A stretch of 64,000 bases of DNA from Fibrobacter sp. (GTDB lineage Bacteria; Fibrobacterota; Fibrobacteria; Fibrobacterales; Fibrobacteraceae). Location: contig JAFPWY010000013.1 of the NCBI GenBank assembly GCA_017412605.1, forward strand, positions 248,001 through 312,000, written 5' to 3'. Position numbers and translations under genes: made by a program. Below the pieces are notes generated by a model, which saw nothing but the letters and a program-made list of their open reading frames with translations, searched no databases and had not been told where the DNA came from. This document shows, piece by piece, positions 11,965 to 59,610 of the stretch (the stretch's first letter is position 1; each line of letters opens with the position of its first letter).

Positions 11965-12861
11965 ATGCAGATAACCGCATCCCTCGTTAACGAACTCCGC
12001 CAGAAGACTGGCGTGGGCATGATGCAGTGCAAGAAGGCCCTCGTCGAAACTGACGGCGACATGGACAAGGCTGTTGAACTCCTGCGCAAGCAGGGCGCTG
12101 CCGTTGCCGCCAAGCGTGCCGACAAGGCTGCCAAGGAAGGCCGCATCTACCTCATCGAAACTGCCGACAAGGCCGCTGCTTTCGAGCTCTCTTGCGAAAC
12201 CGAACCGGTTTCCAACAACGACGACTTCGTCGCTCTCGCCGCTATGGCTGTGAAGGCTGTCGAAACGCAGGACATTAATTCCGTCGAAGACCTCAAGAAC
12301 GCTGTCGTCGATGGCAAGAAGGTGAACGATGTACTCCAGGACGTGCTCGTCAAGATCCAGGAAAACATCGACTTCCGCAAGTTCGCCGTCATCAAGAAGG
12401 TCCCGAGCTCTGTGTTCGGTCTGTACAGCCACATGAAGGGCAAGATCGGTGTCATCACCGAACTCGCTTTCGAAGGCACTCCTTCTGACGAAGCTGCTCT
12501 CAAGCAGGCTGCCAAGGACATCGCCATGCAGGCCGCTGCATTCGCTCCGGTTGCCCTGAACGACGCTGCTGTCCCGGCCGAAACGATTGAAAAGGAAAAG
12601 GAAATTGCCCGCGCTCAGATCGAGCTCCAGGCCCAGCAGACCGGCAAGGCTACCAAGCCGGAATTTGTTGAACGCCAGCTCCAGGGCCGCGTCGCCAAGG
12701 TCCTCAAGGAAATCGTTCTCGAAGATCAGGAATTCTTCATGTCTGACAAGAACCCGAAGAAGCTCTCTGTCAAGGACTACCTCCAGGAAGTCGTTGCCAA
12801 GCAGCTCGGTCTTTCCAGCCTGAAGGTCGTGAACTTCATCCGCTTCGAACGCGGTAACTAA
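11965..12861 (+). CDS. tsf: translation elongation factor Ts
   Basis: EF-Ts, the guanine-nucleotide exchange factor of EF-Tu, 298 aa. The N-terminal UBA-like domain has LRQKTGVGMMQCKKAL and the conserved DMDKAVELLRKQG, followed by the core exchange subdomains (FELSCETEPVSNNDDF) and a C-terminal module (QFFMSDKNPKKLSVKDY type). The start ATG is 1 nt after the rpsB stop, with GGTGAGGAAAAG upstream. In many bacteria pyrH and frr follow; here pyrH is about 17 kb away. Transcription appears to end at the hairpin at 12971. Confidence 0.97.
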   Translation: MQITASLVNELRQKTGVGMMQCKKALVETDGDMDKAVELLRKQGAAVAAKRADKAAKEGRIYLIETADKAAAFELSCETEPVSNNDDFVALAAMAVKAVETQDINSVEDLKNAVVDGKKVNDVLQDVLVKIQENIDFRKFAVIKKVPSSVFGLYSHMKGKIGVITELAFEGTPSDEAALKQAAKDIAMQAAAFAPVALNDAAVPAETIEKEKEIARAQIELQAQQTGKATKPEFVERQLQGRVAKVLKEIVLEDQEFFMSDKNPKKLSVKDYLQEVVAKQLGLSSLKVVNFIRFERGN

Positions 12862-12870
12862 GAGGTTTTG

Positions 12871-12952
12871 AGCGATGAGCTATGAGGTCGGGCCTTCGGC
12901 CCTTTGAGCAAATAGCTTATCGTGTCATCCTGAGCGCGACAGCGCGAAGGAT
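12871..12952. repeat. heptad repeats plus REP-like palindrome
   Basis: Two heptads AGCGATG AGCTATG (12871-12884) are followed by a GGGCC-TTC-GGCCC hairpin and by an imperfect palindrome at 12927-12952: ATCCT-GA-GCGC, loop GACA, GCGC-GA-AGGAT. The latter resembles widespread extragenic TGTCATCCTGAGCG-type palindromes. Only one copy occurs in this window. Confidence 0.5.
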
Positions 12953-24100: not shown

Positions 24101-24223
24101 ATGCAAGGTCGTGTGTTGCAAAAAGGGCGTGTTGAGTCTGTTAATTACAATATTGTAGCGCCGTGTGCAGGTTCCTATTTCATACGAATAGGGAGTCAAA
24201 CAAGGGCTGTTGAAGTGAAATAG
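18146..24223 (+). CDS. giant GLUG-repeat surface protein (2025 aa)
   Basis: Very large predicted surface adhesin. Start ATG 18146 has GAGGTGA upstream and opens a signal peptide (LFSASVFSTPA). From ~residue 130 to ~1400 about 39 GLUG-type units (YVGGLVGY, YVGGVAGN and so on) repeat with a ~25-30 residue period, often alternating YSEGTV-like and YHIxGDV-like strands, predicting a long beta-helix. Two MBG/Ig-like segments (FEYDGFPKAPQV; VVYTGWTMTPEI) and about four InlB/Listeria-Bacteroides repeats (YTFKGWNPRITAVTGKATY) follow. The last ~75 residues (AYALFDMQGRVLQKG ... GSYFIRIGSQTRAVEVK) resemble a type IX sorting domain. It lies 28 nt after the zinc-protein gene and may share its transcript. 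The gene is AT-rich compared with housekeeping neighbours. Confidence 0.85.
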   Translation: MKRFNKKNSTMVKAAFCVALFSASVFSTPAIWDGSADVSWYDASAQTYNLTTAEQLAGLAKLVNQGTSSFEGKTITLGADIFLNDTAGITSSTWEKSSRNKWTPIGSYSRPFKGEFDGIAGKNNRKILGLYIKNTSSNYMGFFGYTNNVKISNLDVLGGYITAKNNTGALVGYADGGTISNVHSDVNVTGSNHVGGLVGYSKVTITASSAKGIIAGQDSVGGLVGITTGSVSGSSKNDTYFMGSVTGRKYIGGLIGAGESVSKCYASGTVKGDSSYVGGIAGNAKGNVDSVYHIGGDVNGSGYVGGLVGLAAGDVKNSYSEGTVIGKSSYVGGLAGYVSGTIENSYHINGDVSGKGNVGGIAGLVEKAISNSYSEGIITGSGDYVGGVAGNVLGTIVSAHHVDGNVEGVKYVGGLAGSAAGNVKNSYSEGTVSGKAYVGGILGAADSSASLSKVYSIGNVHADSSYVGGVVGYATGTIDSVHHSEGDVTGDDDYVGGVAGYAKKTIDSAYHIGGDVSGYGYVGGLAGRADSAIERSYVEGNVTGGQLSSDRNHRNYVGGLVGIGNRISSSYHKNGKVLGDGGNVGGLAGYIKGNNRKTYFVPRDEIPEIFNSYNIGEVECTHTGSWLCEKTGGLVGELYEGEIVESYSEGSVRSDRNYVGGLIGYSHYPYSPIVKMYSCGSSGNQTTCFDNEPDGSPIYFIKNSYFKGDVYGYGYVGGLVGYDSLSTSAFDNTAKTTAKVYRIILNSYSKGNVYGKSAYSGGLIGQSVYLTRAKFDVYAKIDSSYHVNGNIGTKGDSYGYRGGLAGETYYSIFNSYSKGDVFGYEILGGLVGFFHNANSSVNETIKNSYSEGNVDGYGSMVGGLVGDAWHVSIYDSHSIGNINGGVKTGGLIGYSTNGNSSVSNSYSLGSVKGGSHTGGLIGYGPGESVNNSYSIGNVSGGDSCVGGVAGYVKSISGSYSSGDVIGKRKYIGGVVGYATGNVTSSYHIAGNIEGKTYIGGVAGKADGTIRIVSHTEGDIKGDGSYSYVGGIVGYAGSSIDSAVFKGGKVDGGTYVGGIVGYASKSVNRSHSEGDVTGTKKHIGGLAGQVVDSVMNSCSKGSVLGTKNFVGGLAGQIGGSIVNSCSEGNVTTQDDQVGGLVGQIDGSIENSYSRGDVSGVDSVGGLAGVVKGIVKNSYVGATNVKGRNAVGGLIGYALESIKNSYFSGDSVTGLYQVGGFVGYAAKAVDSTYSTANVKGDDNVGGLIGSAYGNISNSYALGNVDGDVDNSSAGNDNLGGLVGYQYSGSVSKSMALGNVNGTTKLGGLVGRFDGTSISQSYANGNVVGDYYGNPADEVGNYYIGGLVGYAKGAVNESYASGVVKGIEEGPVYTGCIVGYVNGSLSVTKTYYDKSKCNLGIDGGENTATITGNPAKTTEEMQTQSTFVDWDFTNTWRIEKNTYPFLQIFANSLINAVVLTESLEGFEYDGFPKAPQVTAVTLYGDALTENVDYAVKYERNVNAGTAKISVCGLNPYSGCKAIKFEIAPKAILPTISAIEDVVYTGWTMTPEISVYNGETLLDASDYTVEYSDNVNAGTASVAITMKENYSGSAIKTFTIGKANPVITQNPGASDITVGSTLALSDLANGTANVPGSFAWKNPEIIPALENEGYVVVFTPNDGVNYNSVEMTVPVKVWDVAYVTVHVGERSLDSAVVVKGTDYTLPKVPDSIGYDFAGFFLGDSAIGLSGDVISVSENTVIDAKYSIKIFAVNFMNGETELQLDSLPYGSLPEYVGSMPIKAASAKYTYPFKGWNPAIETVSKSATYTAVFDSVVNKYVITFMDGNTELQSGEVEYGTIPSYKGTVPTKKETKEYTYTFKGWNPRITAVTGKATYKALFDSTLQKYTVVFKNGNDKLQTISVAYGETPKYTGKTPTKKSTNDYSYEFVGWSPKLGPVAKETEFYAIFDSTKVTGIMAGDFANLGMSVNVVSRNIQISAAPVGKAYALFDMQGRVLQKGRVESVNYNIVAPCAGSYFIRIGSQTRAVEVK

Positions 24224-29782: not shown

Positions 29783-29815
29783 AGATTCAAGAAAATAGAT
29801 GGTGCGGAACGCACC

Positions 29816-29843
29816 CTGACTACTAACCACTAATCACGAACCA
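29816..29843. repeat. degenerate 7-nt repeat array before pyrH
   Basis: Heptads CTGACTA, CTAACCA, CTAATCA, CGAACCA occupy 29816-29843 without interruption, followed by CTTCTTA and the start codon. Confidence 0.7.
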
Positions 29844-29849
29844 CTTCTT

Positions 29850-35727: not shown

Positions 35728-36153
35728 TTATCCCAGCAATTCTTCCTTGCTGATAGCCTTGAAGTTTGTTGCCTTCAGTGCTTCGATAGCCTTGTCCACG
35801 TCCTGGAAGCGGAGAATCATGATGTTCTGGCCGTTCAGAGTGGAGGGGTAAGCGTACATGTAGTCAATCTGCTGGGTTCCGACTGCAGTGGAGAGCAGTT
35901 CGGCGAGGCCACCGATGGCGGCGTTCACGGGGCAGGCGACCACGTCGGTGATGGTGGCACTGAGGCCGGCCTTGGCGAGCACGTCCACGGCCTTTTCCGG
36001 GTCACTGACGATAAGGCGGATAAGCCCGAATTCGCCCGAGTCGGCGAGCGTGAGCGAAAGGAGGTTCACGCCGGCGTCGGCAAGCGAGCGGCATACCGCC
36101 TGGAGACGGCCCGGACGGTTGGATACGAAAACTGAAACCTGTGGGATTTTCAT
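35728..36153 (-). CDS. ACT domain protein
   Basis: A 141-aa protein made of two ACT-like halves: QVSVFVSNRPGRLQAVCRSLADAGVNLLSL (residues ~5-35 region) and, after ~70, YMYAYPSTLNGQNIMILRFQDVDKAIEAL. ACT domains bind amino acids. It follows phenylacetate-CoA ligase on the minus strand, a pairing frequently seen in genomes that degrade or make aryl acids from aromatic amino acids, so it may sense an aromatic amino acid and modulate the ligase. Ribosome-binding site AGGAG before ATG 36153. The 150-nt gap to the ligase gene holds inverted heptad arrays and two hairpins. Confidence 0.88.
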   Translation of the reverse strand: MKIPQVSVFVSNRPGRLQAVCRSLADAGVNLLSLTLADSGEFGLIRLIVSDPEKAVDVLAKAGLSATITDVVACPVNAAIGGLAELLSTAVGTQQIDYMYAYPSTLNGQNIMILRFQDVDKAIEALKATNFKAISKEELLG

Positions 36154-36178
36154 TGTGTTTTCTCCTGTTTTAAAACTT

Positions 36179-36300
36179 TTAGGGGTTAGAATCTAGGATT
36201 TAGGGGCTAGAGAAAGATATCATGGCTTCGCCATTTGTTATAGACGCACGAAGTGCGTGATTCTCATTCACTAGCCTCTAGCCCTTAGTCTCTAGATCCT
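36179..36300. repeat. inverted heptad arrays flanking two hairpins
   Basis: TAG-type heptads (TAGGGGT, TAGAATC, TAGGATT, TAGGGGC, TAGAGAA) fill 36180-36214. The opposite orientation (CTAGCCT, CTAGCCC, TTAGTCT, CTAGATC) fills 36271-36298. Between them are hairpins ATGGC-TTC-GCCAT and ACGCAC-GAA-GTGCGT. The element lies between the ligase and ACT genes. Confidence 0.7.
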
Positions 36301-36304
36301 CTTA

Positions 36305-37642
36305 TCACATCTTCTTCCTGTTGTCGACAACTCTCTTGGCCTTGCCTTCGCTACGCGGCAGCGAATCGGGTTCGCACAGCGTGACAATGACGGAAATGCC
36401 GAGAATCTGTTCGATGGAGTGCTTGAACTTCTTGTTCAGCTGTTCCATGGCGCTCATGGAGTCGCTCACCATGTCGCGGGAAACTTCCACCTTGACTTCG
36501 AGCGTGTCCATGTTGTTCTTGGTATCGAGCACGATCTGGTAGTGCGGCAATGCCTTCTCCGCACGGAGGAGGGCCGTCTCGATCTGGCTCGGGAACACGT
36601 TCACGCCGCGCATGATAATCATGTCGTCGCTACGGCGGCCAATGCGGCGGATGCGGCGGATGGTACGGCCGCACTTGCACTTGGTCTTCTCGATGGCAGT
36701 AATGTCGCGGGTGCGGTAGCGGATGATGGGCATGGCCTTCTTGCTGAGCGTAGAAAGCACGAGTTCGCCCTCTTCGCCGTCCGGCAGCGGTTCAAGCGTT
36801 TCGGGGTCCACAATTTCGGGGTAGAAGTGGTCTTCGAAGATATGGATGCCGTCGCGGCACTCGCATTCGCAGCCCACGCCCGGGCCCACGATTTCGGAAA
36901 GGCCGTAGATGTCGTATGCCTTGATGCCGGTCTTTTCTTCGATGTAGTCGCGCATGCCGTCGCTCCAGGGTTCAGCCCCGAAGATACCGCGCTTGACCTT
37001 CAAATCACGGATGTTGACGCCCATCTTTTCGGCAACGTCGATGATGCGGACAAAGTAACTCGGCGTTCCACCCACCGCAGTGACGCCGAAATCCTTCATG
37101 AGCATCACCTGGCGTTCGGTATTGCCGCCGCTGATAGGAATGACGGTCGCACCGAGGGCTTCGAAACCGCCGTGGATGCCGAGACCGCCGGTGAACAGGC
37201 CGTAGCCGTAGAAGTTCTGCACGATGTCGGTGCTGCGGAAGCCGCAAGCGAGGAGACCGCGCTTCACGACCTGGGCCCACACGTCCATGTCTTCCTTGGT
37301 GTAGCCGACCACGATGGGCTTGCCGGTGGTGCCCGAACTTGCGTGCAGGCGCACGACTTCGCTCAGGTCGACGGCGAACAGGCCATACGGGTAGGTGTCG
37401 CGCAGGTCCTTCTTCATGGTGAAGGGGAGCTTGGCCACATCCTTGAGACTCTTGATATCGTCGGGCTTGAGTCCCTTCTCGTCCATGCGCTCACGGAAGA
37501 GCGGAACTTTCTCGTAGGCGAGCTTTACAGTGGCGCGCATACGCTGCAACTGCAGGTCGCGCAGTTTTTCTTCGGGCATAAAGTCGAGCGCCATCTCGGG
37601 CAGGACCTTGTTTTCTTCGTCATTCCAGGCGGTTGAACGCAT
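36305..37642 (-). CDS. paaK: phenylacetate-CoA ligase
   Basis: Adenylate-forming phenylacetate-CoA ligase, 445 aa, activating aryl acetates with ATP and CoA. Motifs: LRDTYPYGLFAV, the phosphate loop HASSGTTGKPIVVGYT, YGYGLFTGGLGIHGG, YDIYGLSEIVGPGVGCECE, and YRTRDITAIEK with a CxCGR zinc-like site, ending RVVDNRKKM. Length is normal. With the adjacent ACT-domain gene it probably serves aromatic amino-acid-linked metabolism (for example synthesis of Phe or Tyr from aryl acetates via keto acid ferredoxin oxidoreductases). A TATATTCA box lies ~30 nt upstream. Confidence 0.94.
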   Translation of the reverse strand: MRSTAWNDEENKVLPEMALDFMPEEKLRDLQLQRMRATVKLAYEKVPLFRERMDEKGLKPDDIKSLKDVAKLPFTMKKDLRDTYPYGLFAVDLSEVVRLHASSGTTGKPIVVGYTKEDMDVWAQVVKRGLLACGFRSTDIVQNFYGYGLFTGGLGIHGGFEALGATVIPISGGNTERQVMLMKDFGVTAVGGTPSYFVRIIDVAEKMGVNIRDLKVKRGIFGAEPWSDGMRDYIEEKTGIKAYDIYGLSEIVGPGVGCECECRDGIHIFEDHFYPEIVDPETLEPLPDGEEGELVLSTLSKKAMPIIRYRTRDITAIEKTKCKCGRTIRRIRRIGRRSDDMIIMRGVNVFPSQIETALLRAEKALPHYQIVLDTKNNMDTLEVKVEVSRDMVSDSMSAMEQLNKKFKHSIEQILGISVIVTLCEPDSLPRSEGKAKRVVDNRKKM

Positions 37643-37672
37643 AGGGGTTCCTTTAGTTGAATTTTGCGCCTA

Positions 37673-37680
37673 TGAATATA
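37673..37680 (-). promoter_or_regulatory. -7 type box TATATTCA before paaK
   Basis: Minus-strand TATATTCA, 30 nt before ATG 37642; two mismatches from TAnnTTTG at its 3' end. Confidence 0.35.
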
Positions 37681-37777
37681 GGATTATTTCGGAAAATCAA
37701 AGAGTGTGAAAAGGATGTTTTTCTTTTTTTTGCAAAAGACGGCACATGAGCCGTTTTACATGGCGTGTAAAAATGGA

Positions 37778-37805
37778 TTCATAGGATGTATCGTGCTTTT
37801 ATAAT
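37778..37805 (+). promoter_or_regulatory. bamA promoter candidate
   Basis: TTCATA (37778-37783), 16 nt, TATAAT (37800-37805). It would start transcription near 37812, only a few nt before the TTG at 37818. Confidence 0.45.
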
Positions 37806-37817
37806 CTGCGGGGTGGG

Positions 37818-40652
37818 TTGGGTTGGTTTATTTTTTGTATTTTTGGGCGGTATTTTGGATTTTTTTCTGTATCTATAGGTAGGTTTATTCTGCGCTTACG
37901 ATTGTTTTTTTTGATACTGGCCATTGTGTCTGTGACCCGAGCACAACTTTTGGAAGTGTCTGATAGCTTTATGGCGGAAAATAAGGTCCGCAAGGTTATG
38001 GTGGATGGTACAGAGAACATGGACGAACGTTCTGTGTTGAGCCGTATCGGCATCCGTGACGGACAGACATATTCCCCTGCGGCGCTGTCCGAGAAGATCC
38101 AGTCCTCGGTGGCCAACCTTTATAATTCAGGACTTTTTGACGACGTCACGGCATGGATTGACTATGTGGATGATGGCACGGATGTGGATGTCATCTTCAA
38201 GATTAAGGAGCTTCCTGCTTTGGACACGGCTTATTTTGACGGCTGTGACGAGATTTCCGAAGAAGACCTGCGTCTGAAATTGCGCATTATTCCAGGCCAG
38301 GTGTACAGTAAGAGCCAGCTGGAACGTGACCGCCAGGCTTTGCTTGACTATTTCCATTCCGAGGGCTATCTGCTGGCCGAAGTCGGCTATCGTGAGACCC
38401 CGACCGATGACAATAAGAACGAGGTGACCTTCATTGTCCGCGAAGGCGGCAAGGTCAAGGTGACCCAGTTCGACATTCAGGGCAACGAACATGTGCCGGC
38501 CGAGGACATCAAGGAACACATGCTCACCAAACAAGACCAGTGGTGGGGCGGTGGCGAGTTCAAGCAGATTGTCTTTGAGGCCGATCGCGATACAGTGTTG
38601 AACGCTATCCGCCATTTTGGTTACCTGGATGCCGAGTTGACCGATTATAGGGCCGAGTACCTCCCGGATTCCAGCTGCTTGTTCTATCTGGGACGTATGG
38701 TCCCCGTTGGCAATCGTCTGGCGACCATGTACGACCAACTGAATGCGGCCTTGGCCGAACCTTCTTCGCCGCTCTACAAGATGGCGGGCAAACCGACCAT
38801 GCAGGTCACGCATTACTATCGCAAGTTCCACAAGAGCACGGAACCCTGGGTGAGCCGTCAGGTAAAGCAGGTCAAGGACGAAGAAGAAGCTCTCAAGATG
38901 CTCAACGACATTATCCGTTATGAGAGCGCTCGTAAGGAATGGCTCGAAATTACGGCCGACCTCAAGTGGAACAATCCGAAGATTGATTCCCTCTTGGCCA
39001 TTAAGAAGCGCGGCGTCTACGAAGAGAAGTTGATTGTTCGCTACCAGATGGAAGACTTGTTCTCCACTTTGAACAAGTATGACAACATCAAGACTTCCAG
39101 TGCCATCATCATCCATATCAATATGATTGAAGGCCGCCGCTACTACATGGGCTCCCTCCATTTCACCGGTAACGAGGTCCTGAACGACAACATCTTGAAC
39201 TATGCCTATCGTCTGGATAGTGGCGAGGTGTTCGACTACTATGTTTACGAAGCGTCCAAGAAAGCCTTGCTCGATTCTTATCGCGAAGACGGTTACCTGT
39301 TCGCCCAGTTTACCGAAGAACGTACCTTCGAAAACGATTCGACGGTCAACCTGACTTACCACATGGTGGAAGGGCTCCCGGCACAGATTCACAAGGTGCA
39401 TATCCACGGCAACACGAGAACGAACGAAAAGGTCATCCGCCGCGAAGTTCGCCTGTATCCGGGCGATACGTACCGCCAGTCGGCCTTGGAACGTAGTTTC
39501 CGCGAAATCATGCAACTGAACTTCTTCGACATGGTCACGCCGGACATCAAGGTTGTCGGCGAGCAGGAAGTCGACCTCGACTTTGTTGTGCAGGAGAAGG
39601 AAGCCGGTACGGGACAGTTCAGCTTGGGCGTGTCCTATAGTGAAAGTGATGGCCTTGTGGGTACGGCCAGTGTTTCTATCCCGAACTGCTGTATGGGTAA
39701 CGGACAGGCAGCCTCGTTGAATCTCGAATATGGTGTCGACAAGAAGAGTGCGGCCATCAATTTCCAGGAACCGTGGTTCATGGATAAGCCTATTACCGTG
39801 GGTGGTGGTCTCAGTTACTCGTGGTGGCACTTGGATTACGACCCGAACGTCACCCGTTACGGTGGCAACGTGTATGTGGGTAAGCGTCTCAAGTGGCCTG
39901 ACGACTACTTCTACGGACAGATCGGTTACAGCTGGCTCATGAACAAGCAGGGCCCGAACATCGAAGACAGCTACGTGGTGTACACGGGTGTCGAGTCTGC
40001 ATTGAACTTCCGCTTAGTGCGTGACGATAAGAACCTGCCGCAGTTCCCGACGGACGGCTCCCGTTATGTGCTGGATGTCCAGTGGGCTGACGATGTGCTG
40101 TTCAGCGACTTCAACTTTGTGAAGACGGAACTCACGGTCAAGTGGTGGTTCCCGCTGTTCCGCGACAGGCTTGCGATTGCACTCACGAACGAGTATGGTG
40201 TTATCTTCGGCGATCAGCTGCAATACCGTACGCTCTATACTATGGGCGGCGTGCTCGGTTATGAAGGTATGATGCGTGGCTATAGTTCCGGTTCTATCGG
40301 CTATCGTCGTTTAGGTCGCAGCTACCAGTATGTTGGTGCGGAACTGCAACTCGGCCTCGTGCCGCAGACGTTCTACCTGTTGCCGTTCTTCTTCGATGCG
40401 GGTAACGTGTTCGGTGACCGCTACGATCCGAGCACCAAGGTTCCCAAGCCTTCTCGTAGCCCGTTGGAAGAATGGGACCCGACTTCGCTTAAGAAGGATA
40501 TTGGTTTCGGCTTCCGTGTAGTTGTGCCGATGCTCGGTATTATCGGATTTGACTTTGCATGGCCTCTGGATGTGGGTGAAACCTATAGTGGTCTGCAGCG
40601 TACCAACGTGGGCGACATGGAGTTCAACTTCGTGATTGGCCAGGGATTCTAA
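37818..40652 (+). CDS. bamA: outer-membrane assembly factor BamA (Omp85)
   Basis: Central subunit of the beta-barrel assembly machine, up to 944 aa. POTRA modules are readable (VDGTENMDERSVLSRIGIRDG; YFDGCDEISEEDLRLKL; FDIQGNEHVPAEDIKEH; LHFTGNEVLNDNIL; VHIHGNTRTNEKVIRREV), then a 16-strand barrel ending in the aromatic FNFVIGQGF. An insertion of roughly 135 residues (~288-425) interrupts the third POTRA between two strands. There is no ATG start: TTG 37818 is nearly at the promoter; TTG 37902, giving the compact signal peptide before SVTRAQ, is an alternative. A periplasmic chaperone gene follows 9 nt later. Confidence 0.93.
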   Translation: MGWFIFCIFGRYFGFFSVSIGRFILRLRLFFLILAIVSVTRAQLLEVSDSFMAENKVRKVMVDGTENMDERSVLSRIGIRDGQTYSPAALSEKIQSSVANLYNSGLFDDVTAWIDYVDDGTDVDVIFKIKELPALDTAYFDGCDEISEEDLRLKLRIIPGQVYSKSQLERDRQALLDYFHSEGYLLAEVGYRETPTDDNKNEVTFIVREGGKVKVTQFDIQGNEHVPAEDIKEHMLTKQDQWWGGGEFKQIVFEADRDTVLNAIRHFGYLDAELTDYRAEYLPDSSCLFYLGRMVPVGNRLATMYDQLNAALAEPSSPLYKMAGKPTMQVTHYYRKFHKSTEPWVSRQVKQVKDEEEALKMLNDIIRYESARKEWLEITADLKWNNPKIDSLLAIKKRGVYEEKLIVRYQMEDLFSTLNKYDNIKTSSAIIIHINMIEGRRYYMGSLHFTGNEVLNDNILNYAYRLDSGEVFDYYVYEASKKALLDSYREDGYLFAQFTEERTFENDSTVNLTYHMVEGLPAQIHKVHIHGNTRTNEKVIRREVRLYPGDTYRQSALERSFREIMQLNFFDMVTPDIKVVGEQEVDLDFVVQEKEAGTGQFSLGVSYSESDGLVGTASVSIPNCCMGNGQAASLNLEYGVDKKSAAINFQEPWFMDKPITVGGGLSYSWWHLDYDPNVTRYGGNVYVGKRLKWPDDYFYGQIGYSWLMNKQGPNIEDSYVVYTGVESALNFRLVRDDKNLPQFPTDGSRYVLDVQWADDVLFSDFNFVKTELTVKWWFPLFRDRLAIALTNEYGVIFGDQLQYRTLYTMGGVLGYEGMMRGYSSGSIGYRRLGRSYQYVGAELQLGLVPQTFYLLPFFFDAGNVFGDRYDPSTKVPKPSRSPLEEWDPTSLKKDIGFGFRVVVPMLGIIGFDFAWPLDVGETYSGLQRTNVGDMEFNFVIGQGF

Positions 40653-40661
40653 AGGAGGCGC

Positions 40662-41180
40662 ATGATGATTCGTCGCTTAATTCTTCTTTTGGTGTTTGCA
40701 CTTGCTACTGCGGGTATGGCTGATGATGGCCTTCGCGTGGCACATGTCGATTCCAAGCTTATCTTTGACGGCTATAAGGGCACGAAGAAAGCTCAGGAAG
40801 AGTATGACCGCCAGGTGGCTAAGTGGGAACAGCAGGCGAACCTCCTGCAAAAGGAACTCGCCGCCATCAAGGAAAAGATTGACAAGCAGCTTCTGATGCT
40901 TTCGGACGAAAAGCGCCGTGAACTCGAAGCCGACTACAAGAAAAAGGACACGGAGCTCAAGAACTTCATCGATCGCGTGTATGGCCGTAACGGGGAACTG
41001 ATTTCTGAAAACGAGAAAATTAGCGGCCCCATTATCCAGCTGATTCGCAAGGCGGTGAACGAGATTGCCCTGCAGGAAGGCTACGACATGGTCGTGGACC
41101 GTGCAACCGGTTCCGTGCTGTTCTGGAAAAAGGAAAACGACTTGACGCAGAAGGTGCTAGATTACCTGAATAACCGCTAG
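40662..41180 (+). CDS. Skp/OmpH family periplasmic chaperone
   Basis: Periplasmic chaperone that escorts outer-membrane proteins to BAM, 172 aa. A signal peptide (to ~20) is followed by the family strand VAHVDSKLIFDGYKG, a long charged coiled-coil (residues ~45-120) forming the tentacle, and the C-terminal QLIRKAVNEIALQEGYDMVVD strand pair. Ribosome-binding site AGGAGG precedes the ATG, 9 nt after the bamA stop, a common gene order. ATG 40665 is an equally possible start. A strong hairpin terminator follows. Confidence 0.92.
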   Translation: MMIRRLILLLVFALATAGMADDGLRVAHVDSKLIFDGYKGTKKAQEEYDRQVAKWEQQANLLQKELAAIKEKIDKQLLMLSDEKRRELEADYKKKDTELKNFIDRVYGRNGELISENEKISGPIIQLIRKAVNEIALQEGYDMVVDRATGSVLFWKKENDLTQKVLDYLNNR

Positions 41181-41206
41181 TTCTCTGGCTGCATAAGTGT
41201 GTATGA

Positions 41207-41236
41207 AATAGGCCGCCCTTGGGGCGGCTTATTTTA
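41207..41236. terminator. terminator after skp
   Basis: GCCGCCC-TTG-GGGCGGC stem with flanking A/T tracts (ATTTTAT to the right), between the convergent skp and TrmH-type genes. Confidence 0.75.
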
Positions 41237-41258
41237 TATGCGTTTTTTGAAACGGCGA

Positions 41259-42152
41259 CTACTTGATGCGTGTCCTGGCGTATTCGTAAAGTCCGAGGGA
41301 AAGAGCAACGGATGCGTTGTAGGAATGCGCTTCGGGTTTCATTGGAATGCGGAGGATGTCGTTGCACTGTTTCCGGATGAACGGGGGCAGGCCGACGTCC
41401 TCGCCGCCAACGGCGAGCACAACCTGGTCTGCGAATTCGTACCCGGCGAGGCTTGTCTCGGTGTCGGCATCAAGGCCTAAAATCTGATAGCCCGCAAGCT
41501 TGAGCTCGCCGATGGCGGCTTCCAGGTTGTTCGGACGGCAGATGCGCATCTTGTCTAGCGCTCCCGCGCTGGTCCGCGCAACACTTGGGGTGATGCCGCA
41601 CATGCCTTTTGCCGGCATGAGCAGAATGTCCACGCCAAGGGCCAACGAACTGCGGATGCACGCCCCAAGGTTCCGCGGATCCTCGATGTTTGTGGCCACG
41701 GCAATGAGTTTCTTCTCGCCGTTTTCTTTCGCCTTAAAAAATTCCTCGCGGACGTCTTCCCACTGCAGGAGAGCCTTTTCGTTAATCAGCGCGACGACTC
41801 CCTGGTTTGGCCTGGCGTAGCTGTCGAGAATTTTGGAATCCACCTGCTGCACGTGGACATGCGCACGCTTGGCAAGCTTTTGTAAGTTGTACAGCTTGGG
41901 GTTGCCGGACTGGTGCATAAAGAGAATGCGGTGGACGCGCATGGGGTCGTTGGTGAGGAGGCTTTCGACTTCCTTGATTCCACCGACGGCTACTTGCGGC
42001 GCGGCATCGGCATCGCCGATAGCAGCCACGACGTTTTCTTGTTTGAATTTTTTCTCGCCGAATCTGGGGCGGTCATCGCGACCGAAACGGCGCATGCGAT
42101 CGTTGTTTGGTCTGCGCTGATCGCGACGGTTGTCGTCTTCGTTGAAACTCAT
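41259..42152 (-). CDS. TrmH/SpoU family RNA 2'-O-methyltransferase
   Basis: AdoMet-dependent ribose methyltransferase of the knotted SPOUT class, 297 aa. A basic, low-complexity N-terminus (NRRDQRRPNNDRMRR) precedes a substrate-binding domain and the catalytic SpoU domain with motif 1 NIEDPRNLGACIRS, motif 2 AVGGEDVGLPPF and motif 3 PMKPEAHSYNASVALSLGLYE. It probably modifies 23S rRNA or tRNA; the exact nucleotide cannot be told. Start ATG 42152 gives the N-terminus MSFNEDD; an upstream in-frame codon would overlap the previous gene. Confidence 0.9.
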   Translation of the reverse strand: MSFNEDDNRRDQRRPNNDRMRRFGRDDRPRFGEKKFKQENVVAAIGDADAAPQVAVGGIKEVESLLTNDPMRVHRILFMHQSGNPKLYNLQKLAKRAHVHVQQVDSKILDSYARPNQGVVALINEKALLQWEDVREEFFKAKENGEKKLIAVATNIEDPRNLGACIRSSLALGVDILLMPAKGMCGITPSVARTSAGALDKMRICRPNNLEAAIGELKLAGYQILGLDADTETSLAGYEFADQVVLAVGGEDVGLPPFIRKQCNDILRIPMKPEAHSYNASVALSLGLYEYARTRIK

Positions 42153-42172
42153 GGGGGTCTCCGTGTTGTTTA

Positions 42173-42757
42173 TCAGTATTTTTCCCTGCAAGGAATGACG
42201 ACGTTCATTTGAACGTCGGTGTCCTTCTGCTCAAGGGGCTCTTTCGAAATCTGTGCGGGCGTGGCGATGCCAGCCTTGTAGGAATGCGGGTGCTTGGCGA
42301 GGAACTTGTCGTAGTAACCCTTGCCATGTCCGATGCGATTTCCATTAAAATTGAATTTTGTGCCTGGAACGAGGAATATGGGAATATCTTCCTCGAATTT
42401 TTCAAGGCCATCCTTCGGTTCCATAATGCCGAATTTCCCAGGAACAAGGTCCTTGCGCAGGCTGCTTACTTTGTAAAAGTTCATGATGCCCTCGCCTTCG
42501 CAGCGCGGCAGCAGCAGGCGGCCTTCGCGGGCGAGTTCTTCGATAATGGGCATGATGTTCGGCTCGCCTTTCATCGGGTAGAACGCGGCGATGTTTCTTG
42601 CGTCGTGGTATCCCGGAATGTCGTGGATTTCTTGCCAGGGTTCGCCGATGATGTCGTCGCCTTTCTTGTCGCGACGCTTTTTCAGGATAAGTTCGATGAT
42701 GGGGCTGCTGCCGAACACGAATATCGCAAGGAACAGTACGAGTATCGAGGTTCCCAT
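42173..42757 (-). CDS. 5-formyltetrahydrofolate cyclo-ligase with N-terminal membrane helix
   Basis: A 194-aa protein of the 5-FTHF cyclo-ligase fold (ATP-dependent conversion of folinate to methenyl-THF). Recognisable parts: FYPMKGEPNIMPIIEELAREGRLLLPR, GKFGIMEP, and the C-terminal VPGTKFNFNGNRIGHGKGYYDKFL. The usual N-terminal basic helix that contacts ATP is replaced by a hydrophobic segment (TSILVLFLAIFVFG, residues 3-16) and a basic stretch KKRRDKK, so it looks membrane-anchored. ATG 42757 directly follows the RNase D stop (2-nt gap). Enzymatic activity is uncertain because of the altered N-terminus. Confidence 0.82.
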   Translation of the reverse strand: MGTSILVLFLAIFVFGSSPIIELILKKRRDKKGDDIIGEPWQEIHDIPGYHDARNIAAFYPMKGEPNIMPIIEELAREGRLLLPRCEGEGIMNFYKVSSLRKDLVPGKFGIMEPKDGLEKFEEDIPIFLVPGTKFNFNGNRIGHGKGYYDKFLAKHPHSYKAGIATPAQISKEPLEQKDTDVQMNVVIPCREKY

Positions 42758-42759
42758 TT

Positions 42760-43917
42760 CTAGCTCCTGATGGCGCGCGCTGCAGTCGGGAGTTTGTCCT
42801 GAAGGATTTCGTTCCAGATTTTGCGCTGCCATTGCATCAGGTGAGCTTCGTCGTAGCGGTCCTGCCAGGGCATGGTTCCCGGTGCGGCCAGCCAGATGAG
42901 CTGAGACTTATTCGCGACCATCGAAGGGTCTATATGGAGTGCTTCGGCCTTTTCGTCGCGCCACATCTTGAGCGAAAGTAGGAGGTCGGCATTCGGTACC
43001 ACTGGCGGGGGAGGTGCTTTGGGCAGCTTGGCTGGCCAGTTCTCTTCGGGGGTGGCGCAGGCTGCACGGAGCATGGCCATGAAGGAATCGTAGCGTTCTC
43101 CCTTGAAGTTGCGGGGCAACTTGGGCAGTTTATTCTCGTCAAAATTGGGGAATGTCGCCTGGACGTTGCGCACGATGGCGAGCATCAGTTCTGCGGGCAT
43201 GACCTTGTATGGGGGACGGTCCATGGCCTCGGCTTCTTTTTCCCGCCATTCCCAAAGATGCTTGAGAATGTTCAGTGCGCAGGGGTTGTATATGCTGGAA
43301 CCTGTGATGCGCCAGGGGTCTTTCTTGGGCGGGGCCGGGTGCCTAGAATGTTCTATCAGTGCGTTGCACTGTTCGGTCAGCCAACTCATGCGGTTTGCCG
43401 CTTGCAACTTTTCAACCAGGATGGCGCAGAGTTCGTGCAGGTAGAACGTATCGTGGATGGCGTATTCGCACATCTCGAGCGGGAGCGGGCGGATAGTCCA
43501 GTCGGCACGCTGGTTCTCTTTCTTGAGCTCGTCGCCGAAATATTCGCGAACGAGATCGGCCAATCCGAGGTGTGGCTCGCCGAGCAACTTTGCAGCGAGC
43601 ATCGTGTCGAAAATGTTTTTCGGGCTGAACTGGTAGGTCTGCCACAGGAGTCGCAGGTCGTAGTCCGCACCGTGGAAAATAAGCGTCTGCATGGCGCGTG
43701 CCTTGAATAGCGGGGCGAGGTCTATACCGCAGAGGGGGTCGACGATATAGTAATGGTCCCCGATGGTAATTTGGATAAGGCAGAGCCGTGCTAAATAATG
43801 ATGCATAGAATCGGCCTCCGTATCGACGGCGGCCATATCATACAAGTCGAGATCTTCGAGAAGCTTGGCGAGGGATTCCTCGCTGTCTACCAAGATGTAT
43901 TTTTCGTTTTGCAACAT
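42760..43917 (-). CDS. rnd: ribonuclease D
   Basis: 3'-5' exoribonuclease of the DEDD family with an HRDC domain, 385 aa; trims tRNA and other small RNA 3' ends. Exo motifs: AAVDTEADS (D, E), LIFHGADYDLRLL (D), and YAIHDTFYL (YxxxD), with two metal ions bound by the acidic residues. The HRDC-like helical part contains PPYKVMPAELMLAIVRN, and a shorter second helical repeat ends the protein. I start at ATG 43917 (MLQNEKYILVDSEE), since the upstream extension is not conserved-looking. First of three close minus-strand genes. Confidence 0.88.
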   Translation of the reverse strand: MLQNEKYILVDSEESLAKLLEDLDLYDMAAVDTEADSMHHYLARLCLIQITIGDHYYIVDPLCGIDLAPLFKARAMQTLIFHGADYDLRLLWQTYQFSPKNIFDTMLAAKLLGEPHLGLADLVREYFGDELKKENQRADWTIRPLPLEMCEYAIHDTFYLHELCAILVEKLQAANRMSWLTEQCNALIEHSRHPAPPKKDPWRITGSSIYNPCALNILKHLWEWREKEAEAMDRPPYKVMPAELMLAIVRNVQATFPNFDENKLPKLPRNFKGERYDSFMAMLRAACATPEENWPAKLPKAPPPPVVPNADLLLSLKMWRDEKAEALHIDPSMVANKSQLIWLAAPGTMPWQDRYDEAHLMQWQRKIWNEILQDKLPTAARAIRS

Positions 43918-43997
43918 TACCTGTGAAATGTAACTAAATTGCGAAAAAATGAGAACTCCGAAATGAAAAAGACGGCTCGATAAAGGGACTTGCTTCG

Positions 43998-44903
43998 TTA
44001 CCCGCAATGACGTTTGAGTGCCTCGATGTAGGAGTTGGCGTAGCGCGAAAGCGTGATTCCCTTGCGAGTCACGATACCGATGGTCATCTTGTCGAGGACT
44101 GCGAGTGGCTTTGCGATGATGTCCTTGCCGTTCAGCTTGTGGCTGATGACTCCTGAACAGATGGTATAGCCGTCGAGGCCGATGAGTAGGTTGAAAAGCG
44201 TGGCGCGGTCGCGGACCTTGATATTGCGTGGACAGTCGAAGTCAATGGCCGTGAGCGGCTCTTCGGCGAAATAGAACGAGTTGAAGTTGCCCTGTTCGTA
44301 AGTCAGGTACGGGTATGGCTTCAAGTCGGCGAGCGAGATGCGTTCCTTTTTTGCGAGCGGATTCTTCGATGACATGAATACGTGGAGCGGTGTTGTAAAG
44401 AGTTGTTCAAAAACGAGATTGTTCTTTTGTATCAGCTTGCGGATGACTTTTTCGTTCTTGCCGCTGAGGTAGAGTACCCCAATTTCACTTTTCATTTTGG
44501 CTACATCGTCGATAATCTCGTTTGTCTGCGTTTCGCGGAGCGTGAAGTCGTAGCTTGGACCACCGAATTTGCGGATGACATCGACAAAGGCGTTCACGGC
44601 GAAGGAGTAGTGCTGGCAGCTGACGGAAAAGATTGTATTGCCGTTCTCGCCGCCTTTGTAGTGGTCCTCGAGGAGGGCTGCCTGTTCCAGCACCTGGCGC
44701 GCGTACGAGAGGAATTCGTCGCCTTCGTTTGTTATGGTGACACCCTTGTTGCTGCGGTTGAAGATGGTGACACCCATCTCTTCCTCGAGTTCGTGGATGG
44801 CTGCGGTCAAACTTGGCTGCGAAATGAAGACACGCTTGGATGCTTCGGTGATGTTCAGTGTATCGGCTACCGCGACGGCGTATTTAAGTTGTTGTAAAGT
44901 CAT
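43998..44903 (-). CDS. LysR-family transcriptional regulator
   Basis: LysR-type regulator, 301 aa. The N-terminal helix-turn-helix is standard: LQQLKYAVAVADTLNITEASKRVFISQPSLTAAIHELE, with NRSNKGVTITNEGDEFL. The C-terminal ligand domain is of the CysB/OxyR fold (VFEQLFTTPLHVFMSSKNPLA). It is divergent from metE, with a T-N11-A palindrome between them, so it probably controls metE and itself; in other bacteria MetR, also LysR-type, uses homocysteine as co-inducer, but the ligand here is unknown. Five degenerate heptads directly precede its ATG and no Shine-Dalgarno sequence is visible. Confidence 0.9.
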   Translation of the reverse strand: MTLQQLKYAVAVADTLNITEASKRVFISQPSLTAAIHELEEEMGVTIFNRSNKGVTITNEGDEFLSYARQVLEQAALLEDHYKGGENGNTIFSVSCQHYSFAVNAFVDVIRKFGGPSYDFTLRETQTNEIIDDVAKMKSEIGVLYLSGKNEKVIRKLIQKNNLVFEQLFTTPLHVFMSSKNPLAKKERISLADLKPYPYLTYEQGNFNSFYFAEEPLTAIDFDCPRNIKVRDRATLFNLLIGLDGYTICSGVISHKLNGKDIIAKPLAVLDKMTIGIVTRKGITLSRYANSYIEALKRHCG

Positions 44904-44910
44904 AGGGGGG

Positions 44911-44945
44911 TGAGCTGTGAGCTATGAGCAATGAGTGATGAGGGG
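44911..44945. repeat. degenerate 7-nt repeat array before lysR-type gene
   Basis: Five head-to-tail heptads: TGAGCTG, TGAGCTA, TGAGCAA, TGAGTGA, TGAGGGG, in the predicted 5' leader of the regulator gene. Confidence 0.75.
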
Positions 44946-44969
44946 TTTGGGTTAGTGACTTTGTTCTAT

Positions 44970-44986
44970 CATAGGTTTAAACTATG
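44970..44986. promoter_or_regulatory. LysR-type operator between regulator and metE
   Basis: CATAGGTTTAAACTATG has inverted arms CATAG/CTATG and a T-N11-A core. Its centre is about 68 bp before the predicted metE transcription start, the usual activating position of LysR proteins, and it overlaps the putative promoter of the regulator itself. Confidence 0.5.
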
Positions 44987-45031
44987 GTGAACGCATAAAA
45001 AATAGTATTTTACCTATTTCAAAAAAGAGGG

Positions 45032-45039
45032 TATATTTG
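45032..45039 (+). promoter_or_regulatory. metE -7 box TATATTTG
   Basis: An exact TAnnTTTG match 43 nt before ATG 45083. No TTG is found at the -33 position, which fits activator dependence. Confidence 0.55.
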
Positions 45040-45082
45040 GGAGCGTTCAAGAAAAACATGTAAAAAAGGTAGGTAAATCAAT

Positions 45083-47356
45083 ATGACGGCAAAGAAGACA
45101 TCGGTTATCGGTTTCCCGCGCATTGGCAAGGCCCGCGAACTCAAGTTTGCTAGTGAAAAATTCTTTAAGGGCGAAGTCTCCGAAGCGGATCTCCAGAAGA
45201 CCGCCGCAGAAATCCGCCAGTACGGTTGGCAGAAGCAGAAGGCAGCCGGGATCTCGTTCATCCCGTCCAACGACTTCTCGTTCTACGATAACGTTCTCGA
45301 TACGGCGTTCTTGCTCGGTGCCGTTCCGGCCCGTTATAAGGAACTCGGCCTTTCCGCCCTTGAGACTTATTTTGCCGCGGCCCACGGCTATCAGGGCGCC
45401 AAGGGCGACGTCAAGGCGCTCCCGATGAAGAAGTGGTTCAATACGAACTACCACTACATCGTGCCCGAGCTGGACGATTCCACCGAGCTCGCCCTCTCCG
45501 GCGACGTGAAGCCCCTCCAGGAATACAACGAAGCCAAGGCCGCCGGCATCCAGACCGTGCCGAGCCTCATCGGTCCCTACACGTTCCTGCGCTTGGCCCG
45601 CTACAACGGCAACAAGAAGGCTGACGCTTTTGCCGCTTCTGCCGTGAATGCCTATTTGAAGTTGGTGGAACAGCTTGCGGCTGCTGGAGCCGAATGGATC
45701 GCTTTTGCCGAGCCTGCCCTCGTCTTTGACGTGAACGATGAAGAAAAGCAACTCTTCAAGTCTATCTATGCGTTCCTGCTGGAACAGGTCCATGCGAAGA
45801 TTTCCGCAAAGATTCTCTTGCAGACCTACTTCGGCGATATCCGCGATGTTTACCAGGATATCGTTTCGTTCGGCTTCGACGGTATTGGCCTCGACTTTGT
45901 GGAAGGCCTCAAGTCGCTTGAACTCATCAAGACCGGATTCCCGAAGAACGCAGTCCTCTTTGCGGGCGTGGTGAACGGCAAGAACATCTGGCGCGCTGAT
46001 TATGCGCAGAAGAACGCCCTCCTCGCCGAAATCGAGAAGTTCGTGGATGCCGCCAACATCGTGGTGGGTACCTCCTGTTCCCTGCTGCATGTGCCTTACA
46101 CCGTTGCCGCCGAGCAGAAACTCCCCGCGGAAACCCTGAAGCATTTTGCCTTCGCCGAGGAAAAGCTAGTGGAACTTGCCGACCTCGCCAATGCCGACGC
46201 GGCCGCCCTCGAAAAGAACAAGGCCCTGTTTGCCGCCGCTCGCGTGAGCGAAAATGCTGCGGTGCAGTCCGCGCTTGCCGCCCTCAATGATGCCGACTTC
46301 GTGCGTAGCCCGTCCCGCGCCGACCGCAAGAAGGTGCAGAAGAAGGTCTTCGGTCTCCCGGCTTTCCCCACGACAACGATTGGTTCGTTCCCGCAGACGG
46401 CTGAAGTCCGTGCGAACCGTGCCGCCTTCAAGAAGGGCGAAATCACTCGCGAACAATATGTGGCGTTCAACCAGAAGAAGATTGCGGAATGCATCGCTCT
46501 GCAAGAAAGCATCGGCCTCGACGTTATTGTGCATGGCGAATTCGAGCGCAACGACATGGTGGAATATTTTGGAACGCAGATTGACGGGTTCATCTTCACG
46601 CAGAACGCCTGGGTGCAGAGCTACGGCACTCGCTGCGTCAAGCCGCCTGTAGTGTGGGGCGATATTCACCGCAGCAAGCCCATCACCGTCGAATGGTCCG
46701 TGTTTGCCCAGAAGCAGACGAACAAGCCCGTGAAGGGCATGCTCACTGGCCCCGTGACGATTCTCAACTGGTCTTTCCCGCGCGAAGATATTTCGCTCAA
46801 GGCGCAGGCCCAGCAGATTGGCCTTGCCATCCGTGACGAAGTCCTTGACCTCGAAAAGAACGGCATCAAGATTATCCAGATTGACGAGGCCGCCCTCCGC
46901 GAGAAGCTGCCGCTGCGCAAGAGCGACTGGCACAAGGAATACCTCGACTGGGCTATCCCCGCATTCCGCCTGGTGCACGCGAAGGTCAAGCCTGAGACGC
47001 AGATCCACACGCACATGTGCTACAGCGAGTTCAACGACATTGTCCGCGACATCGACGCCATGGATGCCGACGTGATTACGTTCGAGGCGAGCCGTTCTGA
47101 CCTCAAACTGCTTGATGCACTCAACGAGGCGCATTTCGAAACGCAGGTTGGCCCGGGCGTGTACGACATCCACTCGCCGCGCGTACCCTCTGTCGAGGAA
47201 ATAGTCAATACGCTCCACAAGATTCTTGACAAGGTTCCGCAGGAGAACGTGTGGGTGAACCCCGATTGCGGCCTCAAGACCCGTGGCGAGACGGAGACGA
47301 CTGCAAGCCTCAAGAACCTGGTCGCCGCAGCCAAGCAGTTGCGCGCCGAAGCCTAG
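45083..47356 (+). CDS. metE: cobalamin-independent methionine synthase
   Basis: Transfers the methyl of 5-methyl-tetrahydropteroyl-triglutamate to homocysteine, last step of methionine synthesis, without B12; 757 aa, full length. The N-terminal barrel starts [16 protein letters not shown]; the C-terminal barrel begins [16 protein letters not shown]. Zinc ligands are visible as His644 and Cys646 in [10 protein letters not shown] and Cys729 in [18 protein letters not shown] is also typical. Monocistronic, divergent from a LysR regulator that probably activates it. The metE product is needed where B12 is limiting. Confidence 0.97.
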
Positions 47357-58663: not shown

Positions 58664-58684
58664 CTAGATCCTGATCCCTAAACC
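58664..58684. repeat. degenerate heptads before yajC
   Basis: CTAGATC, CTGATCC, CTAAACC in tandem, overlapping the stop codon of the cyclic-nucleotide-domain gene. Confidence 0.55.
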
Positions 58685-59610
58685 AACTTCTTGTCGAGCA
58701 GGGGGAATACGCGGTTGAGCTCAATCAGGTCCATGATTTTGTCGAAGTCGGCGTAGAAGAACTGGATCTCTTCTATGGGCATGTGGATGTCGTAGGTTGC
58801 CGAGGGGAACAGCAGCTTGCGTTCAATGAGCGAACTCATGGTGCGCGTGGTCAGTGTGAATCCGTGCATGGACTTTTTCGCCTCGTCGCAGAGCTGCTTT
58901 GTCGTGACCGTGCAGATGCCACCGGGACGCGGCGATGAACTTTCTCGAGCGACCTTCAGGAAGGTGGAGAGAATCATCTGGTCGGTCATGGACAAAATGT
59001 TTGGCGACACCTTCTTGTTCAGGGCCCGGTACTTGATGGTCTCGTAGAGTATCGTTACGATCTGCTGGCTTGAAGTGCTGATTACGTTGTCCTGAATCTT
59101 GAGAATCCCGAGTTCCTGCAGGATTTCGAGCAGCTTAGTCGCATTTTCGACCGAAGTGCCAGCCAGTGCATGGATTTCCCTGTGCAGGGCGCTTGCTTCG
59201 AGCTTGTTTGTGTTTGACTTCTTGAGGCTCGAAGAAATGATATACAGGAGCGGCGGCAACGACTGGATGAGCCCATTCTTGCGCTTGTTCTCTTCGGCGA
59301 TGTGGAAACGCTTGGAGAGGAACTGCAGTATGGAAGTAATCCAGGACGGTTTTTGTTCCAGCGTGTCGTTAAGCGTCTCTTTGGAAATTACGATGAGCTC
59401 GCTTGCTTCTGCGGCCCGGAGCGTGTACTGTCTAGGTGCGCCCTCGAGCAGGCTGAGTTCGTCGATGATGGAACCCGGTCCAAAATTGATGTAGCGTTCA
59501 CCCGAACTTTGGTCCTGGGTTTCGGCGACGATCATGCCGCTCTTGACGATAAAGAGCGTGTTGGCCTTGTCGCTTTCGAGGCAGACATATTCTCCGGCAG
59601 TCACTATCAT
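58678..59610 (-). CDS. cyclic-nucleotide-binding domain protein 2
   Basis: A 310-aa protein. Residues ~1-105 form a Crp-type cyclic-nucleotide-binding domain: INFGPGSIIDELSLLEGAPRQYTLRA carries the phosphate-binding cassette ELSLLEGAPR with the Arg that contacts the nucleotide. The remaining ~200 residues are helical, without a clear DNA-binding helix-turn-helix. The start codon overlaps the TAA of the upstream paralogue (TAATG), so translation is coupled. Possible regulator sensing cAMP or another nucleotide; function unknown. It sits in the ribosomal operon before yajC. Confidence 0.82.
   Translation of the reverse strand: MIVTAGEYVCLESDKANTLFIVKSGMIVAETQDQSSGERYINFGPGSIIDELSLLEGAPRQYTLRAAEASELIVISKETLNDTLEQKPSWITSILQFLSKRFHIAEENKRKNGLIQSLPPLLYIISSSLKKSNTNKLEASALHREIHALAGTSVENATKLLEILQELGILKIQDNVISTSSQQIVTILYETIKYRALNKKVSPNILSMTDQMILSTFLKVARESSSPRPGGICTVTTKQLCDEAKKSMHGFTLTTRTMSSLIERKLLFPSATYDIHMPIEEIQFFYADFDKIMDLIELNRVFPLLDKKLV

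Follow-up and report, generated by a model that had tools for sequence, protein, structure and literature searches.

The 64,000-nucleotide stretch of Fibrobacter sp. DNA analysed here (the window; contig JAFPWY010000013.1 of assembly GCA_017412605.1, positions 248,001 to 312,000) carries tandem arrays of degenerate 7-nt units, or heptads, in the gaps between genes, among them an array at 44911–44945 next to a LysR gene. These arrays are probably the variable arms of small, non-coding palindromes that recur in intergenic DNA; the arms would gain and lose whole units, and the elements turn over rapidly. An initial annotation of the window had listed six such sites and suggested that they were remnants of a replicating short repeat, translation enhancers or protein binding sites. 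The pattern is wider and more ordered than that annotation could see. At all six sites the coordinates are correct and the 7-nt spacing is present, with lag-7 matches of 6/7 (12871–12884), 16/21 (29816–29843), 16/28 (36180–36214), 13/21 (36271–36298), 22/28 (44911–44945) and 8/14 (58664–58684). The 12871 site consists of two units and the 58664 site of three, each too short to serve as sole evidence; the latter gains weight because its orthologous gap carries long heptad arrays in both close relatives.

Period-7 arrays and their dialects

The comparison with shuffled sequence suggested in the initial annotation revealed an intergenic excess of 7-nt periodicity. It used an 864-kb sample (800 kb plus the window) of the genome that holds the window, termed G000 (3.53 Mb, 99.5% complete), with 408 gaps of 30–700 nt (73,745 nt in total) and five dinucleotide shuffles. 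The gaps were taken from a purpose-written gene caller, a simple script, and gene edges are therefore approximate. The 408 gaps contain 100 period-7 segments against a shuffle mean of 11.0, and 76 segments at lag 14 against 10.8, whereas the remaining 15 lags between 4 and 20 yield 6–32 segments against 8.8–13.6. Segments scoring at least 9.5 (n = 112) are mainly intergenic (81, with 13 straddling a gene edge and 18 within called genes), in a sample where called coding sequence (714 kb) is nearly five times longer than non-coding sequence (150 kb). A 19-nt pattern derived from the 44911 array matches the genome 206 times at up to three mismatches, and the reversed pattern does not match at all. 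Although the two shortest window sites are weak by themselves, an origin by chance, low complexity or coding periodicity retains next to no probability: the strong excess is confined to lags 7 and 14, which together with the 206 matches against none rules out chance and coding periodicity.

Clustering of 95 arrays by unit profile yields several dialects: TAGRRNC (35 arrays), TGAGCNR (24), AGACGAA (11), a TAATTGA/TAATGGA type (7) and AAGTAGG (3), while the other 15 form small groups, some of them probably due to chance. The TGAGC dialect is patchy, matching 13 of 61 genomes in a family sample at up to two mismatches, with the highest counts in G000 (90) and its relative G058 (50). The initial annotation had named TAG/TGA or its complement as the common nucleus, which holds for the window arrays and fails as a universal rule, since no stop codon occurs in pure AGACGAA arrays. 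An all-frame series of stop codons was likewise rejected as the general cause of TAG/TGA and period 7, because pure AGACGAA and TCGGAAT units in series contain no stop.

Neighbouring units are identical in 29 of 332 cases, with 30.8 expected when unit order is shuffled, and exact doublets are scarce in the 864 kb (TGAGCAA 0, TAGGATC 1, TAGAGGC 1, AGACGAA 8). Mean unit identity is 0.713, 0.665 and 0.620 at a distance of one, two and three units, a fall which duplication followed by mutation predicts, in arrays whose selection at lag 7 biases such unit statistics. This steady fall speaks against a true unit of 14 nt; the higher frequency of identical units two apart (40/278) than adjacent (29/332) points the other way.

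Polarity, architecture and turnover of the elements

The 95 arrays occupy 70 gaps, 17 of which carry arrays on both strands (38 arrays in total) and thus contain inverted pairs with convergent G-rich strands. In all 22 opposite-strand pairs of these gaps the G-rich array lies on the left and the C-rich array on the right. With a stricter definition of skew the ratio of G-left to C-left pairs in G000 is 20:0, and it is 15:0 in G058 and 6:0 in a second relative, G071. The rule spans pairs of the TAG, TGAGC, AGACGA and TAATGGA types as well as a TCGGAAT-like pair in genome G048 and an A-rich pair in G071. Independently of gene calls, the pattern TGAGN3TGAG-gap-CTCAN3CTCA has 200 matches in 37 of 80 congener genomes and the reverse order (CTCA left, TGAG right) 13 matches in 6 of 80, both figures being hand-added sums in which nested matches at one site are counted repeatedly; in G000 the counts are 55 and 0. 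A reversed control of the TGAG-left pattern, which is its C-left form, gives no match, and that of the CTCA-left pattern, itself a G-left GAGT palindrome, gives 13 matches in seven genomes.

The same polarity is seen relative to genes. The G-rich strand leaves the nearer gene into the gap in 53 of 67 strong arrays with a G/C skew, six of the 73 strong arrays being left out of this count for want of a skew, whereas intergenic DNA without arrays has a balanced skew and no polarity. By base counts, with the sides assigned by the author, all six window sites obey the rule.

The arrays at 36180 and 36271, handled as separate sites in the initial annotation, are the two halves of one element. With 40 of 87 candidates scored, the genome yields 41 matches to the segment spanning them (36178–36300, 123 bases), the query itself and one match of 34 nt included. 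Across 28 of these copies (30 were fetched, but for L205 and L219 a neighbouring copy already in the set was taken, so that these two are missing) identity is 0.915 in the core of about 65 nt, 0.735 in the left arm and 0.596 in the right arm. Copies of this type are thus dispersed, with a conserved core and variable arms. In a second type, exemplified by 12871–12909 and resembled by others, TGAGG units flank a GC hairpin with a TTCG loop. Two composite copies on different contigs are 91% identical over 173 nt, which argues that whole elements are copied.

Arrays and dialects turn over rapidly at orthologous gaps. Comparison of 87 G000 gaps with G058 or G071 gave 139 orthologous pairs (an earlier comparison had 21), with arrays in both members in 24, in G000 only in 10, in the relative only in 8 and in neither in 97. 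The mean aligned coverage of the gap is 0.75 in pairs with arrays in both (24), 0.68 with an array in one (16) and 0.91 with none (91), eight pairs with a side under 20 nt being omitted. At C1:82731 the same start and stop codons are separated by a 104-nt element in G000, by 2 nt in G058 and by a different array of 50 nt in G071. Three different elements occupy the gap beside a tRNA-Leu gene (C3:98122) in the three species, and at C1:94044 the gap is replaced while the flanks are 97–98% identical. Within the array at C10:68554, G058 is shorter by 14 nt, or two units, and G071 has another element. By comparison, the gap at 36154 in the window is shared by G000, G058 and G071, with a length of 151 nt in each and few substitutions. 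An array immediately precedes the ATG in 8 of 29 LysR leaders, in three dialects, the rest having hairpin units, unrelated repeats or a short leader; array leaders of pyrH occur at 11 of 30 loci, again in several dialects (30 of 57 genomes with a match, G000 included).

Two further observations concern repeats in similar positions. In one gap (G000 C9:180042–180263, L018) a unit of about 65 nt, made of a hairpin and heptads, is itself tandemly repeated. Other dispersed GC-rich repeats, of the types GATTGCTTC..TTCG..CGCAATGACA and GATGCCCGGTCAAGCCGGGCATGACA, lie in gaps like those of the heptad elements, including the LysR leaders L057 and L064, G000 C1:144066, C1:194359 and more.

Mechanism and competing explanations

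The proposed element would consist of G-rich heptads, a loop or at least one GC hairpin with TTC/GAA or TTCG loops, and C-rich heptads. Its arms may gain and lose whole units of 7 or 14 nt through slipped-strand mispairing, and the elements may spread by ectopic copying, with selection mainly restricting them to gaps. Forms with one detectable arm outnumber complete elements, and such arrays would be halves or relics of two-armed ones. Being palindromic with a fixed polarity, such an element would usually present its C-rich strand, in which ATG and GAGG are scarce, to a start codon, and its G-rich strand, in which TAG and TGA are often frequent, would come after a stop codon. Effects on translation or on mRNA 3′ ends would then be by-products in most places. 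Among the options of the initial annotation, the remnants of a replicating short repeat are thus favoured: the 36180 and 36271 sites are the arms of a dispersed palindrome, one orthologous pair differs by two units, and gaps are filled, emptied and re-filled between relatives.

A number of observations weigh against this interpretation. The polarity rule is broken by 14 of the 67 skewed arrays and, in eight other congeners, where G-left and C-left pairs number 1:0, it is not significant when these are taken alone. In its favour, arms in the same gap are more alike than arrays from different gaps (mean 0.555 vs 0.462), a value reached by 7 of 20,000 random draws, yet these draws take pairs as independent although several share one gap, and five of the 22 pairs fall below the mean similarity of unrelated arrays. 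No opposite-strand partner was found in the gap, at the threshold used, for 57 of the 95 arrays, and these are thus putative arms. Folding is only suggestive, since a quarter of the array-free slices reach a z-score of −2.5 (median −2.98 for 15 two-armed elements vs −0.55 for 40 array-free slices). A double change of one core base pair, present in 2 of 28 copies, gives weak support for a selected hairpin structure. A length difference of exactly whole units was clear in a single case; the other pairs with arrays are of equal length, differ by amounts such as 11 or 12 nt, or are wholly different. No constant target-site duplication appeared in three filled/short gaps read by eye (CAT is repeated at the junction of one, where it can be the array's own unit), and no mobilising enzyme was found in G000, where the Y1 transposase was searched for and other transposases were not.

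Repetitive extragenic palindromes (REP) and REPINs, which occur with TnpA-REP/RAYT enzymes, are extragenic palindromes present in many copies. The Fibrobacter elements share with them a palindromic, extragenic and dispersed character, and their arms contain TAG- and GAG-type motifs, which we take to be linked to REP tags. A REP/REPIN-like transposition system, with the heptads as cleavage-guide repeats, is nevertheless improbable. In contrast to REP/REPIN, the arms vary in length, unit number and sequence, and mobilisation by RAYT/IS200 was rejected since G000 contains no Y1 transposase domain in a search whose control was positive in 5 of 14 known genomes. No Rfam family matched window positions 36000–45300 at E up to 1, and an exact-pattern scan of IMG/VR for the core gave no match. 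As a separate observation, the only reverse transcriptase found is a lone 538-aa open reading frame (ORF) in L125 (1108–3410; around G000 C15:18926), followed by a 234-aa ORF; the two are perhaps a defence pair.

The initial annotation stated that the pyrH and LysR arrays run into an ATG without a ribosome-binding motif, and they do so at distances of 5 and 6 nt, respectively. Start-adjacent arrays might accordingly be translation leaders, that is unstructured, G-poor ribosome-landing sites standing in for the Shine-Dalgarno (SD) motif. An SD-like motif is absent from all six array leaders and present in 106 of 269 well-scored array-free genes (26 of 269 in an upstream control stretch); it is found in 0 of 8 LysR leaders with an array against 6 of 21 without, and in none of the 11 pyrH leaders with an array, where the heptads recur in several dialects. 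Moreover, a translational role has been proposed by MacGregor for the TAACTGA repeats of Beggiatoaceae (PMC4679880). A loss of SD motifs beside arrays is thereby suggested, but the differences are not significant (p 0.085 overall and 0.15 for LysR), the 19 pyrH leaders without an array have no SD motif either, and 21 of 29 LysR and 19 of 30 pyrH leaders contain no array by the score used. The position just before SD-less starts holds for part of the arrays only. Overall, 44% of arrays lie within 6 nt of a gene edge (19% under random placement), including 8 of the 36 strong arrays on the start side. A leader function is not general, because 37 of the 73 strong arrays adjoin a 3′ end more closely, and as the explanation of the arrays it is unlikely.

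That 24 of these 37 arrays lie within 6 nt of the stop codon is consistent with a role of the hairpins in terminating or protecting transcripts, as in REP/BIME elements, as are the good folding of some two-armed elements and the frequency of arrays in convergent gaps (15/59, compared with 42/244 co-directional and 13/100 divergent ones). The convergent excess is not significant, however (p 0.055 against divergent gaps and 0.093 against the rest), and arrays occur in divergent gaps as well. By eye, the arms have no terminal T-run, and in several gaps an ordinary GC hairpin with a T-run stands beside the array, so that 3′-end elements are a possible but not a likely general answer. Recognition by a sequence-specific repressor, nucleoid or RNA-binding protein would suit the regular spacing and the nucleus shared inside a dialect, but it is very improbable, given that one genome has several dialects and that the dialect at one locus is swapped between species whose 300-nt flanks are 80–98% identical in the examples. 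The protein-binding option of the initial annotation therefore gains nothing. More generally, dialects under one polarity rule and gap swaps between relatives argue against a sequence-specific function for most copies.

Elements and neighbouring genes in the window

The window elements are listed in Table 1, with the gene names pyrH, LysR, metE and tsf assigned by reading the translations.

Table 1. Heptad arrays, arms and hairpins in the window (window positions).
Feature	Position	Strand	Remark
G-rich left arm of a dispersed palindromic repeat, with heptads of the TAGNNNN dialect	36179–36212	+	
Conserved core of the 36179–36298 repeat, two small hairpins	36210–36274	+	
Core hairpin 1, ATGGC-TTC-GCCAT	36222–36234		Within the 36210–36274 core
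Core hairpin 2, ACGCAC-GAA-GTGCGT	36244–36258		Within the 36210–36274 core
Right heptad arm of the 36179–36298 repeat (C-rich on +)	36269–36298	−	
TGAGCNR array	44910–44953	+	Includes the noted array 44911–44945
CTAACCA-type array (C-rich on +)	29816–29844	−	Ends 5 nt upstream of the pyrH start (29850)
Hairpin GGTGCG-GAA-CGCACC upstream of the pyrH array	29801–29815		Read by eye
Two TGAGC units, hairpin GGGCC-TTC-GGCCC (12890–12902) and another TTTGAGC	12871–12909	+	By eye
Short C-rich array	58664–58684	−	Last unit includes the stop codon of the minus-strand gene 58678–59610

The right arm of the 36179–36298 repeat stops 6 nt short of the 3′ end of the minus-strand gene 36305–37642, and the 12871–12909 element begins 10 nt downstream of a gene end at 12861. 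On the coding strand of LysR (43998–44903, minus) the TGAGCNR array has CTCATAG-like units and reaches to 6 nt from the start. The nearest relatives of the LysR protein are found in Fibrobacter metagenome-assembled genomes (MAGs; 96–88% identity), and of its neighbours metE alone is widely shared (25 of 28 congener loci). The protein, encoded beside metE, is also 80–85% identical in rumen MAGs and genomes labelled Bacteroidales, Salinivirgaceae, Paludibacteraceae, Treponema and Spirochaetaceae (L077–L087, L089), where the upstream region is similar too, which suggests cross-phylum transfer or misbinned contigs. Elsewhere in the window, tandem repeats of period 42/84 lie within long minus-strand ORFs (3960–4183 and 1718–1910), perhaps encoding repetitive linker peptides, and 18146–24223 is a single ORF of 2,025 aa.

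Comparison with known heptameric repeats

Earlier reports of heptameric intergenic repeats are scattered and treat them variously as G-quadruplexes, as signals for translation or as stems in introns. Cyanobacterial STRR are also short tandem heptanucleotide repeats. No description of heptad repeats in Fibrobacter was found in the openly accessible literature searched; in the genome paper of S85 the word "repeat" is confined to the reference list (PMC3079729). In Fibrobacter, several dialects follow one polarity rule in one genome, and orthologous gaps are found short, filled or swapped. Strain-level comparison of these arrays makes the origin of the arrays, and the question of why the unit has seven nucleotides, testable. 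The fast intergenic turnover can also mislead the annotation of promoters, terminators and gene ends.

According to Mrazek et al., as cited in PMC4679880, long simple repeats with a heptanucleotide unit outnumber those of every other class in most of the genomes studied. Direct TAACTGA repeats occur in Beggiatoaceae, some Cyanobacteria and Bacteroidetes and resemble the present arrays as intergenic heptads; they often stand directly before SD-less start codons, a position that part of the Fibrobacter arrays also have. Between two Cyanothece strains their indels mostly come in 7-nt steps, and some species mix heptamers in arrays (PMC4679880). They differ in having an exact unit, with related heptamers rarely repeated, and in the near absence of inverted copies (1 indirect repeat vs 169 direct sets; PMC4679880), and two consecutive TAACTGA units do not occur in the 864-kb G000 sample. 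The P6b stems of the Nostoc tRNA-Leu(UAA) intron consist of heptads of Class I (TDNGATT) and Class II (NNTGAGT) (PMC4476775). Here, too, degenerate heptads form a hairpin stem, one class replaces another at one site and units are gained and lost, but at a single locus within a self-splicing intron as opposed to a genome-wide intergenic population (PMC4476775).

It is conceivable, if improbable, that a process crossing phyla writes heptads at gene borders, each gene edge behaving as a chromosome end would: a G-rich 7-nt repeat would be synthesised from it, 5′ to 3′, into the gap, and a gap extended from both edges would hold G-rich-to-C-rich arrays placed head to head, as in fused telomeres. 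The enzyme, a polymerase that slips by 7 nt or takes a short templated step, would then set unit length and polarity, and a local or genomic seed would set the dialect, with Fibrobacter, Xanthomonas and Nostoc as three outcomes of this one process.

The GGGAATC or (GGGANTN)n repeats of Xanthomonas are heptads that lie mainly between genes and near the 5′ neighbour; 70 and 75 convergent inverted pairs are reported, and the repeats are more frequent between convergent than divergent genes (PMC4692102). In the author's reading these inverted pairs have the same architecture and polarity as those of Fibrobacter (PMC4692102). However, Xanthomonas has one dialect, with GGG tracts able to form G-quadruplexes (PMC4692102), whereas Fibrobacter has several strongly degenerate dialects and, in one type of element, a core of conserved hairpins that separates the two arms. 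None of the 95 Fibrobacter arrays has four GGG tracts; the G-quadruplex was therefore rejected for them, and they are classed as a variant and not as the same repeat. With heptameric repeats of the Xanthomonas and Nostoc type they share the excess of the 7-nt unit and the mainly intergenic location, and they are best regarded as a variant form of intergenic heptameric repeat, which in Fibrobacter often makes up the arms of dispersed palindromes.
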